From positions 682,001-746,000 of the forward strand of contig NZ_JAPDMU010000001.1 of the NCBI RefSeq assembly GCF_026319325.1: a stretch of DNA of 64,000 nt. The letters run 5' to 3'. Position numbers and translations under genes: made by a program. Source of the DNA: Methylophaga sp. OBS3. Its GTDB lineage: Bacteria; Pseudomonadota; Gammaproteobacteria; Nitrosococcales; Methylophagaceae. Position 1 is the stretch's first letter; each line of letters begins with the position of its first letter. The notes below the pieces were generated by a model, which was not told where the DNA came from, searched no databases, and saw nothing but the letters and a program-made list of their open reading frames with translations. Below are positions 26,638 through 30,271 of this stretch, one piece after another.

Positions 26638-27240
26638 TTAAGTTCGCGCAAGGGCTACAGTCTTAAAAATTTGACGATAAATTCTGACAGCAAACAATAG
26701 CGATAAAATCACTATGTAGATGACCGGCTCCGTAATATCGGCCTTCACTAGCATCAGAAAATGTAGACATGACAGCGCTGCCACGACATAAGTTAGCTTA
26801 TGTAACTGCTTCCACCGCTGTCCACCAAGGCGTTTCATCATTTTGTTGGTTGAGGTGATAACTAATGGTAACAATAGCAGCATGCTGATGAAACCAATAG
26901 TGATGAACGGCCGCTTAATAATGTCTTTAAGTATTTCAGTCCAATCAAAAAATTGATCGAGCCATAAGTACAAAAGCATATGAGTAACGGCATAAAAAAA
27001 CACAAATAAGCCTGCCATGCGGCGAAATCGGATAATTTGATTAAAGCCCGTTAGCCATCGAATAGGCGTTAGCGTTAATGTCAGTAATAAAAATCGTAAT
27101 GCCCAGGTACCTGAATCGCGAGTTATGGCCTCAATTGGATTTGCACCAAGCTGATCGGTAAATAAAGCGTAAGTCAGCCATATTGCAGGCACTAACGCTG
27201 CAATAAAAAAAAGTACTTTAAAGTGACTGACCCGCAACAT
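26638..27240 (-). CDS. msrQ: MsrQ haem-binding membrane subunit of MsrPQ
   Basis: MsrQ is an inner-membrane b-type haem protein that passes electrons from the quinone pool to MsrP for repair of periplasmic methionine sulfoxide. The 200-aa protein has five to six predicted helices. Family marks are SGTWALRFLLLTLTLTPIRW, FRRMAGLFVFFYAVTHMLLY with a haem His, and RWKQLHKLTYVVAALSCLHF with further ligand histidines. It begins five bases after msrP on the same strand. The pair is followed by a 164-base spacer and then the aceE operon, which has its own promoter. Confidence 0.95.
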   Translation of the reverse strand: MLRVSHFKVLFFIAALVPAIWLTYALFTDQLGANPIEAITRDSGTWALRFLLLTLTLTPIRWLTGFNQIIRFRRMAGLFVFFYAVTHMLLYLWLDQFFDWTEILKDIIKRPFITIGFISMLLLLPLVITSTNKMMKRLGGQRWKQLHKLTYVVAALSCLHFLMLVKADITEPVIYIVILSLLFAVRIYRQIFKTVALART

Positions 27241-27245
27241 ATTGC

Positions 27246-28202
27246 TTAGAAATACTTTCGTAAATCCATGCCATCGTAGAGGCTTGCAACCTCTTCACCA
27301 TAGCCATTAAACATTAAGGTTTCTCGCTTTAGAAACTCACCAATTCGGCGTTCACGTTTTTGGCTCCAACGAGGATGATCAACTTCCGGATTCACATTGG
27401 AATAAAAACCATACTCACCTGCATTGGCATGCATCCAAGCGGTTAACGGCATTTCTTCGACAAAGCGAATTCTGACAATCGATTTAATACTTTTAAAACC
27501 ATATTTCCATGGCACTACTAGGCGTATCGGTGCACCATTTTGCCCTGGCATTTCATGCCCGTATAAACCTGTCGCCAGTATTGTTAATGGATGCATAGCT
27601 TCGTCGATTCTAAGACCTTCGATATACGGCCACTGTAAAACCCGGCGGTTTTGCCCTGGCATTTGTTGTGGATCAAACAAGGTGGTGAATTCGACAAACT
27701 TAGCATTCGCATTGGGTTTGGCCGCTTTTAAGATGTCAGCCAATGGAATACCAATCCATGGAATCACCATAGACCAGCCTTCTACACACCGCATACGATA
27801 AATACGTTCTTCGAGTGTTTTCCCTTTTAGCAACTCGGTATATTCGTAATCACCCGGATTATCACATTGACCATCGATTTTAATCATCCAGGGTTTATTG
27901 GGATCGGGGAAATCCGCAGCTAAAATCGCCGGTGATTGTTTATCAGTACCAAACTCATAGAAGTTGTTATAGGTCGTGATGTCTTGGTAAGAGGTTAACT
28001 TTTCCTCGGTTGAAAAATCACTGTTTTTAACATTCTCAATGACCTCCCCAGTTGGTTTTGTCTCGGCAAAACCCGGTGTTGCCATTGCTGCTGTGGCAAG
28101 CCCCATCGCACCGTTGATAAATTGTCGACGGTTAAGAAAAACATTGTGATCAGTTACTTCAGACTCAGGTAACTGCCATGATTGTTTTTTTCGGATAAAC
28201 AT
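27246..28202 (-). CDS. msrP: MsrP molybdopterin methionine sulfoxide reductase catalytic subunit
   Basis: MsrP reduces methionine sulfoxide in periplasmic proteins with a molybdenum-molybdopterin cofactor. The 318-aa protein opens with a twin-arginine signal ([18 protein letters not shown] at 24-41), so it is exported folded by Tat. The molybdenum-binding Cys is Cys139 in [11 protein letters not shown]. Other MsrP marks are [33 protein letters not shown] and the C-terminal [15 protein letters not shown]. An AGGGGG ribosome site precedes the ATG. It lies eight bases after the DoxX-like gene and is probably in one operon with it and the hvfA-like gene. Confidence 0.96.
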
Positions 28203-28210
28203 TGTGCCCC

Positions 28211-28819
28211 CTACTCGACTTTTTTAGCCAACCAGTAATCAATACTGAGATAACGCCCCGCGCCCATGAAAAATAGCGTCACGAGCATGATGAAATAAGT
28301 GGCTGCGAACTCAATACCGTTATTTAAAACGACAAAATTTCCATATTCAGTTAACCAACTGTAATTGCCATGCTCCTGCAAAATATCTTTGGCACGAGCT
28401 AAGCGTTCAATCGCCTCAGGCGCATGAGCCGATGCAAACGCACTACTTGGGTCATGGATCGCCTGCCAGCCATTTTTCCAATGCACACTAAATGCAGCGA
28501 CCAGCATCGTGACCATCAAAGGAATACTGATCCAACGCACCGCTAAACCAAGCAATAACAAAATGGCACCAAAATATTCTGCGCTCCAGGCCAAATAAGC
28601 CATCAACTCAGGGAAAGGTAATCCCAATCCCCAATCAGGATTGGCAAACCAATTAATCGTGCCTTGTAATGAACTATTTGGATCAAGTGGATTCCACTTA
28701 TTGTTTGCCGCGACCCAAAATACAGGTACCAGATACAACCTTAATAAAACTGGTGCAATAAAATCGACTGCGCGCGTTTTATTAAGTATTGACTGAAGTT
28801 TATTTAATATATTTTTCAT
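28211..28819 (-). CDS. DoxX-like membrane protein, HvfX/HvfD type
   Basis: The protein of about 202 aa belongs to the DoxX superfamily and has four or five predicted helices. I prefer the ATG at 28819, which has AGAGG upstream; a TTG at 28843 would start inside a terminator stem. Family features are the first helix with [38 protein letters not shown] in the centre, and a C-terminal [16 protein letters not shown]. Such DoxX-like proteins are encoded beside hvfA-type genes in copper-binding-peptide loci, where they are thought to help maturation or export. Here it sits between the hvfA-like gene and msrP. Confidence 0.8.
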
Positions 28820-28842: not shown

Positions 28843-28868
28843 AACAAGGGCTCGGAGGAGCCCTTGTT
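28843..28868 (-). terminator. Strong hairpin between the hvfA-like gene and the DoxX-like gene
   Basis: A perfect 11-base stem (AACAAGGGCTC, loop of four, GAGCCCTTGTT) begins 22 bases after the hvfA-like stop. The minus-strand bases after it read TGTTTAAG, a poor T run, so it may be a partial terminator or mRNA stabiliser. Either would lower the downstream genes relative to the small peptide. Confidence 0.7.
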
Positions 28869-28889: not shown

Positions 28890-29186
28890 TTACTCACCAC
28901 CACACTTGGCTTCACCGCATTTACCTTCACCATCTTTTTTCATGTCTTCGCCACATTTGGCTTCACCACATTTACCTTCGCCGTCTTTTTTCATTTCTTC
29001 GCCACATTTGGCTTCACCACATTTGCCTTCGGCATCGTGTTTATCAGCGAGTTGCATGTAGCCACTAGACAGCTCGGCACTGGCAAACGGGTTGCTGTCA
29101 GCATTTGCCATTGGAGATAAAGCCAAACCCGCTGTAAGCGCGACACCGGTTGCTAAAGCGATAGAAGTTTTTTTGCTTGTTGCCAT
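28890..29186 (-). CDS. hvfA: HvfA-like Cys-repeat secreted peptide precursor (putative copper-binding RiPP)
   Basis: This 98-aa protein has a signal peptide (start MATSKKTSIALATG, cut near ANA|DSNPF at residue 29) and a C-terminal half made of three near-identical 17-residue repeats that open with EGKCGEAKCG. The third is cut short by the end of the protein. It has six cysteines at 56, 61, 73, 78, 90 and 95. EGKCG repeats mark HvfA precursors, whose cysteines are converted by HvfB (DUF692) and HvfC (DUF2063) into oxazolone/thioamide pairs that bind copper. The ATG at 29186 is chosen because AAGGA lies eight bases upstream. It is probably the first gene of an operon with the DoxX-like gene, msrP and msrQ. 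HvfB and HvfC are not adjacent. Confidence 0.8.
   Translation of the reverse strand: MATSKKTSIALATGVALTAGLALSPMANADSNPFASAELSSGYMQLADKHDAEGKCGEAKCGEEMKKDGEGKCGEAKCGEDMKKDGEGKCGEAKCGGE
28893..29030 (-). repeat. Tandem 51-bp coding repeats in the hvfA-like gene
   Basis: Two full 51-bp units and a third partial unit (36 bp before the stop) encode the EGKCGEAKCG blocks. The units differ at only a few mostly synonymous bases, so they probably arose by recent duplication, and repeat number could vary between strains. Confidence 0.9.
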
Positions 29187-29244
29187 GAGATACATCCTTT
29201 ATAAATTTGCAAAAACCAACCGATAAAATTACCGGCCTTAACAA

Positions 29245-29273
29245 CTAGACTCACAACAAATCGTTTTGTTACA
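29245..29273 (-). promoter_or_regulatory. ECF-type promoter candidate for the hvfA-like operon
   Basis: On the minus strand TGTAAC (29273-29268) is followed after exactly 17 bases by GTCTAG (29250-29245). An AAC-containing -35 and a GTC-containing -10 are hallmarks of many ECF sigma promoters. It leaves a leader of about 55 bases before the hvfA-like ATG and lies in the intergenic region shared with an ECF sigma gene. The sequence match is seen; recognition by that sigma is inferred. Confidence 0.55.
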
Positions 29274-29401: not shown

Positions 29402-30019
29402 ATGACGACTCATCCAGACAATCCATTCGCTGATGATAAACAGCTTATAGATGCCTTACTGTCTGGTGATGCCGCTGCATTTGATTGGTTAGTCAGTCAA
29501 CATCATAACCGGATGCTGGCAATTGCAAACAGCATCATAGGTGAAGCTTTTGCTGAGGAAGTTGTTCAGGAAGCCTGGCTCTCTGCGATTAATGGTCTGG
29601 GTCAATTCGCTGGCCGAAGCAGTCTATCAACCTGGTTAATACAAATTACAGCAAATGGTGCAAAGTCACGCTTGCGCCGTGAGAAGCGGAATGTATCGCT
29701 TGATGAGGGTTGGGATGAGCAAGCGCATGAAGCGCGCTTTGATCATACTGAGCATTGGCGGCAGAGCATTCAACAATGGGAGCTGGCAACGCCTGAAGCC
29801 ATCGCTGAAAATAGTGAGTTGTCCGCCATCATCGAACAGAGCTTTGCACAATTGCCACCCTTACAGCAATCCGTTTTGATGCTGTTTGATCTCGAACAAA
29901 CCCCAATGCCAGAAATTTGTAACATTCTAGATATCAGTGCATCTAATGCACGTGTACTACTTCATCGTGCACGTGCGACGATTCAACAAAAAATTGCTAA
30001 ATATCAGGACCCAAAATAA
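29402..30019 (+). CDS. ECF-type sigma-70 family RNA polymerase sigma factor
   Basis: A 205-aa alternative sigma factor. Region 2 occupies about residues 14-98, with EEVVQEAWLSAING (the -10-contact helices) and a basic SRLRREKRN after it. Region 4 is at about 150-200, with LPPLQQSVLMLFDLEQTPMP and a helix-turn-helix ending ARVLLHRARATIQQ. There is no region 1.1 or 3, as in ECF sigmas. The zf-HC2 gene starts on the very next base after its stop, the standard sigma/anti-sigma coupling. It diverges from the hvfA-like operon, which it most likely transcribes in response to metal or oxidative stress. Confidence 0.9.
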   Translation: MTTHPDNPFADDKQLIDALLSGDAAAFDWLVSQHHNRMLAIANSIIGEAFAEEVVQEAWLSAINGLGQFAGRSSLSTWLIQITANGAKSRLRREKRNVSLDEGWDEQAHEARFDHTEHWRQSIQQWELATPEAIAENSELSAIIEQSFAQLPPLQQSVLMLFDLEQTPMPEICNILDISASNARVLLHRARATIQQKIAKYQDPK

Positions 30020-30271
30020 ATGCTCAGTTGTAAAGAAGTAGCTGAACAAGCCAGCGACCATATAGATCAGCATCTCCGATGGGATCAACGGCTACGCTTT
30101 AAATTACATTTACTGATTTGTCGAAATTGTCGACGTTATGTCGCGCAGCTACGTTGCACGATTGAGAGCTTGCAGAAATTACCTATTAAACAAACGCCTC
30201 AACCAACTGAACAGCACAAATTACTGGCCAGTCGGTTGCGTGAGCAGGCGCGTAAACAAGATTATTTTTGA
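30020..30271 (+). CDS. Small soluble zinc-finger anti-sigma factor (zf-HC2)
   Basis: This 83-aa protein starts on the base after the sigma-factor stop. It has the anti-sigma zinc motif H-x3-C-x2-C at His30, Cys34 and Cys37 (HLLICRNC), an additional Cys4, and is rich in Arg and Lys. It has no membrane helix, so it is a minimal cytoplasmic zinc-dependent anti-sigma. Oxidation or metal exchange at the zinc site could release the sigma factor directly, without proteolysis. Its last ten bases overlap the convergent DUF1244 gene. Confidence 0.8.
   Translation: MLSCKEVAEQASDHIDQHLRWDQRLRFKLHLLICRNCRRYVAQLRCTIESLQKLPIKQTPQPTEQHKLLASRLREQARKQDYF

Follow-up and report, generated by a model that had tools for sequence, protein, structure and literature searches.

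In Methylophaga sp. OBS3 an ECF sigma factor gene and the gene for its putative inhibitor lie divergent from the operon hvfA-hvfX-msrP-msrQ, and the site TGTAAC-N17-GTCTAG found upstream of this operon (29273..29245, minus strand) is, to judge from its sequence and conservation, very probably a genuine promoter and one of a type already known. Coordinates are those of the window, i.e., the whole 64,000-nucleotide stretch of DNA that was analyzed. Our explanation of the region, in which as a whole we place considerable confidence, begins with envelope oxidant or copper stress as the probable inducer, under which the zinc anti-sigma factor would release its partner. The freed sigma factor would transcribe hvfA-hvfX-msrP-msrQ from the divergent site and hvfB-hvfC from a second site 51 kb away; the sigma gene, which has no such promoter, is presumably read by the housekeeping polymerase. 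In most of the family, a further promoter is predicted near the end of the sigma coding sequence; its transcript would cover the anti-sigma gene alone and so provide a shut-off feedback, and in the window species this candidate promoter lacks the G of its -10.

The site upstream of hvfA

The elements and genes concerned are:

29402..30019, plus strand: ECF sigma factor gene, regions 2 and 4 (Sigma70_r2, 48.1 bits; Sigma70_r4_2, 43.7 bits)
30020..30271, plus strand: zinc-binding anti-sigma factor gene (83 aa, putative), starting directly after the sigma gene, with an HLLICRNC motif
29268..29273, minus strand: -35 element TGTAAC of the predicted hvfA promoter, kept in Methylophagaceae
29245..29250, minus strand: -10 element GTCTAG of the predicted hvfA promoter, after an N17 spacer, kept in Methylophagaceae, its core that of the Neisseria sigma-E -10 CGTCTAAH
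29238..29239, minus strand: predicted transcription start (A), conserved in the family, with spacing as in Neisseria msrA/msrB
28890..29186, minus strand: hvfA, HvfA-family metallophore precursor (NF050137, 66.7 bits, cut-off 19.5)
28211..28819, minus strand: hvfX, DoxX-family HvfX (NF050144, 237 bits)
27246..28202, minus strand: msrP, periplasmic methionine sulfoxide reductase catalytic subunit (NF003767, 465 bits)
26638..27240, minus strand: msrQ, heme-binding subunit of MsrPQ (NF003831, 182.6 bits)

The 205-aa sigma protein matched no sigma region other than 2 and 4, as befits an ECF factor; the genome has five sigma-70 region-2 genes in all, and one further ECF-like gene (G000:C6:66452) aligns to the window sigma gene. 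The 83-aa protein encoded next to it (zf-HC2, 27.1 bits against a cut-off of 22.2; NF052368, 57.4 against 50) combines the HxxxCxxC motif with the adjacency to a sigma gene that mark a ZAS protein, and is putatively the inhibitor of its neighbor. HvfA, the putative copper-binding peptide, carries three KCGEAKCG repeats, fitting the repeated KCGExKCG pattern looked for, and falls below the cut-off of the strict equivalog NF050188 (51.3 against 95); the HvfA repeat model matches a single gene in the window genome. The listed open reading frame starts at 29195, but the ATG at 29186, with AAAGGA upstream, is the better fit and probably the true start, the upstream ATG overlapping the ribosome-binding site.

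A preliminary description of this DNA had proposed an ECF-type promoter here, on the minus strand and with exact 17-base spacing, and the element and its spacing are as it described them. TGTAAC-N16/17-GTCTA has one match in the 64 kb window, against 0.06 expected. That description had also suggested scanning the genome for this pattern so as to define the regulon. When the scan was run, the exact pattern showed no excess over a reversed control per genome, in the window genome or its congeners; the single hvfA match is thus not proof by itself, and for the same reason per-genome motif counting was abandoned in favor of position and conservation. A looser core did outline hvfA and hvfB, as described below.

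TGTAAC-N17-GTCTA was found upstream of hvfA in 20 of the 24 genus genomes; in two others (G003 and G013) the site takes the form GTCTCT, and we attribute the remaining genus genomes without a match to incompleteness. Across the Methylophagaceae (L102–L135) it was present at all 33 loci in which the region is present, L124 having been left out of the count because its upstream region was lost at a contig end. The site remains with hvfA even where the sigma gene lies at a distance of some 1 kb or more, as at L115 and L129 (about 1 kb) and, with GTCTCT as its -10, at L142 and L149. A site-anchored alignment of the family concentrates its information in TGTAACAA, in GTCTA and in a CAAG further downstream, and also shows a conserved A lying 35 bases beyond the first letter of TGTAAC; outside the family, the Halopseudomonas hvfA sites retain GTCTA. 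A chance match would sit well with the exact pattern being no commoner than its control within single genomes, but not with conservation at every one of the 33 loci, nor with the fact that the looser core has just two intergenic copies, which precede the precursor and maturase genes, and we consider it extremely improbable.

Promoters of Neisseria sigma-E have the -10 CGTCTAAH and, six bases beyond it, a start-site A that is conserved (Hopman et al., PMC2893595). The window -10 is GTCTAG with an A before it, and both GTCTA and the A at +35 are conserved in the family, in agreement with the -10 core and start-site spacing of Neisseria. The -35 elements differ, GTMAGBWTT there (PMC2893595) and TGTAAC here, and as only GTAA is common to both, we call the hvfA promoter related to the Neisseria sigma-E type rather than a member of it. 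In Neisseria meningitidis, too, a small zinc-type anti-sigma gene directly follows the sigma gene (sigma-E/MseR, NMB2144/NMB2145), and the targets are DoxX with neighboring genes and a methionine sulfoxide reductase; however, the reductase is MsrAB there and MsrPQ here, and the sigma gene there is autoregulated from inside a target operon, whereas here it is divergent and without a site of its own (PMC2893595). Family conservation, the match to the Neisseria -10 and start-site A, and the second site before hvfB together lend strong support to the predicted ECF-type promoter of the hvfA operon.

The conserved element might instead bind some other regulator, or serve the general RpoE-type sigma factor that this genome also encodes. 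There is indeed a second ECF sigma gene, and our assignment of the site to the window sigma factor is drawn from sequence. Nonetheless the two-hexamer form with its fixed 17-base spacing and variable spacer, the synteny with the window sigma gene, and a -10 core equal to that of a Neisseria factor controlling homologous genes all speak against this alternative, which we judge very unlikely.

hvfB-hvfC and the wider regulon

Searching the window genome by pattern for the looser core TGTAAC-N17-GTC gave nine copies: seven inside genes, all antisense to those genes, and only two intergenic, one before hvfA and the other before hvfB. hvfB-hvfC, about 51 kb from hvfA, encode an MNIO maturase and its partner (NF003818, 445.8 bits; NF050145, 302.1 bits; G000:C3 about 761 kb), so that both maturation genes sought for an HvfA system are at hand. 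The hvfB site was found in 18 of the 19 readable genus orthologs, window genome included, the nineteenth having ATC for GTC (the L192 upstream region is unreadable and stands outside the 19); no site precedes the seven MNIO paralogs that are 31–36% identical to HvfB. Given this second copy, the best explanation is that the hvfA precursor and the hvfB-hvfC maturase form one two-operon regulon, with predicted dependence on the window sigma factor. Such a regulon, defined from sequence alone, would be compact, with a single stress sigma factor in charge of the precursor of a metal-binding peptide, of the maturase encoded far from it, and of methionine repair in the periplasm. One point against this explanation is that the transcription start predicted for hvfB in the window genome falls on the annotated ATG; the gene may be leaderless or may begin at codon 9.

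hvfB-hvfC come after a rhodanese gene and a gene for a 254-aa secreted protein with no NCBIfam match (G000:C3 about 761–763 kb; L035 8387–11128). Several congeners have second, distant MNIO genes (L204–L210) that lack a sigma-type site, which suggests separate regulation.

A third site, TGTAAC-N17-GTCTA with a spacer ending in TGATT or AGATT, occurs in 11 congeners, and the copies inspected (those of seven of the 11) lie upstream of dsbD. At L075, L076, L082, L087, L088, L089 and L099 the form before dsbD is TGTAAC-N17-GTCTAG, divergent from a phosphate-transporter-like gene. We rejected dsbD as a target in the window genome, where, unlike in those congeners, no site lies upstream of it.

Comparable target sets are known elsewhere. 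Haemophilus influenzae RpoE2 controls a doxX/DUF692/DUF2063 operon under hypochlorite, with very little rpoE2 autoregulation (PMC7907618). It resembles the window system in pairing an ECF sigma factor with a small cytoplasmic anti-sigma factor and in targeting an hvf-type operon and a periplasmic MetSO reductase; it differs in that its hvf genes form one operon, here split over two sites, and in that hypochlorite induction was demonstrated there, whereas the Methylophaga system is known from sequence (PMC7907618). Caulobacter sigma-F also controls a DUF692-DUF2063-DoxX operon, but from the promoter GTAACC-N16-CGAA, with a membrane anti-sigma factor (NrsF), and sigF itself has a sigma-dependent promoter upstream (PMC3511200). 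By analogy, the window system appears related to the Neisseria sigma-E/Haemophilus RpoE2 class.

The motif within the sigma gene

Having seen no second copy ahead of the gene for the sigma factor, the preliminary description had suggested that control may be one-way rather than autoregulatory. The absence itself held up: the window has no canonical site before the sigma gene (the best candidate matches 7 of 11 positions), and none of 80 related loci has a sense-strand copy there. Just upstream of the gene, a simple scan of the sense strand, which is a weak test, found no sigma-70-type promoter either. The suggested one-way control was only partly upheld, for in relatives the coding sequence of the sigma factor contains a copy under constraint, ahead of the anti-sigma gene, and the window has a variant of it:

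29918..29946, plus strand: degraded internal promoter candidate TGTAAC-N17-ATCTAA in the sigma gene; TGTAA[CT]-N17-GTC in 34 of 34 related loci

These 34 Methylophagaceae loci (L102–L135) carry the motif near the sigma gene's 3' end, 28 of them as full TGTAAC-N17-GTCTAA. It ends about 70 bases upstream of the anti-sigma gene and overlies the codons of the conserved helix ICNILDISASNAR (helix-turn-helix), where codon usage at the 34 loci was TGT (34), then AAC (31) or AAT (3), and in the -10 GCG (21) or TCG (13), then TCT (30), TCC (3) or TCG (1). The window species, with ATCTAA, has lost the G, a single mismatch relative to the related loci.

Synonymous constraint was assessed on a tree built without the internal-site codons; permuting matched synonymous sites gave P = 1.4e–4. 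The two fourfold sites in the internal -10 are the most conserved of 39 in the sigma gene (1 and 4 changes, median 14), the TGT wobble of the -35 has zero changes on the tree, and the spacer codons are mostly free to vary. In the Ala/Ser codon of the -10, eight changes fell on the first base and one on the wobble G, the latter being that of the window species (GCATCT); congener G002 reads GCATCT too. A putative internal feedback promoter of the Methylophagaceae, partly lost in the window species, is well supported by these patterns.

At two loci the anti-sigma gene has been relocated. In M. lonarensis (L149), handled separately because it is more distant, the gene is inverted, with TGTAAC-N17-GTCTTC upstream, and the internal -35 now reads TGTCAC. 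At L142 it is the last gene of a thioredoxin/CcdA-like cluster, which is preceded by TGTAAC-N17-GTCCTC. Together with the internal copies, the anti-sigma gene thus keeps a sigma-type site in three architectures.

The codon constraint may possibly have a cause other than promoter function, since the site overlaps helix-turn-helix codons and the TGT/AAT constraint outlasts the -10 G outside the Methylophagaceae. Outside the family TGT was found in 42 of 42 cases and AAT in 40 of 42, with the -10 G mostly absent. In distant gammaproteobacteria (L136–L181, codons of ICNILD..SN) TGT and AAT are fixed even in G+C-rich genomes that prefer TGC and AAC. Such far-reaching fixation would fit a reading in which the hvfA site is used but the internal motif is no promoter, codon choice in the helix being limited by the needs of translation or of the mRNA and the motif match being coincidental. 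Within the Methylophagaceae, however, the low-change synonymous sites sit on both hexamers at a spacing of exactly 17 while most spacer codons vary, the wobble G outlasts eight Ala/Ser switches, and the relocated anti-sigma genes carry sites of their own; we therefore think this reading unlikely. We consider it likely instead that the Methylophagaceae select synonymous codons to keep an internal sigma-dependent promoter, so that the sigma factor would induce its inhibitor and not itself, an arrangement decayed in the window species and perhaps extending in weaker form to Kangiella, Alcanivorax and Pseudomonas.

Strictly one-way control, in which the sigma factor would act on hvfA but on no gene of the operon that encodes it, would accord with the 80 loci lacking a site before the sigma gene and with the ATCTAA of the window, but hardly with a family-wide internal site and with the sites at relocated anti-sigma genes. 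At best it could describe the window species and congener G002, and as a general account we find it improbable. Because the internal copy is degraded by one base there, one-way control may nearly hold in the window species, and the preliminary description may have been nearly right about that species for a reason invisible to a single-sequence view.

Feedback on the anti-sigma factor only, as we propose for the Methylophagaceae, would have a precedent in Corynebacterium glutamicum, where a sigma-dependent promoter inside sigH drives only the anti-sigma gene rshA, as determined by Northern blot and primer extension, and sigH itself is read from housekeeping promoters (PMC3489674). In sequence, the candidate promoter of the 34 related Methylophagaceae loci has a comparable position, while the window species has one mismatch in its -10; the phylum and the target genes are different (PMC3489674). 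The predicted loop lies within coding sequence and can be probed by a single synonymous substitution, and a natural loss variant for comparison is available in the window species.

RNA structures around hvfA

Two further features of the hvfA transcript were noted:

29218..29237, minus strand: conserved stem-loop of the hvfA leader, immediately downstream of the predicted start and followed by a U-run (from a covariation count)
28843..28868, minus strand: 11-bp hairpin with a T-rich tail between hvfA and hvfX, possibly a partial terminator

The leader helix, set by hand, pairs in 83.5% of cells, against 17–52% with the partner slid, and shows 17 double changes; 1–2 of 500 shuffles score as high. 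RNAalifold found no consensus structure in the same leader alignment, for which reason we take support for the helix to be only moderate, and Rfam gave zero matches. The stem-loop with its U-run is possibly a stabilizer or attenuator, and the hairpin between hvfA and hvfX possibly lowers downstream expression relative to the precursor.
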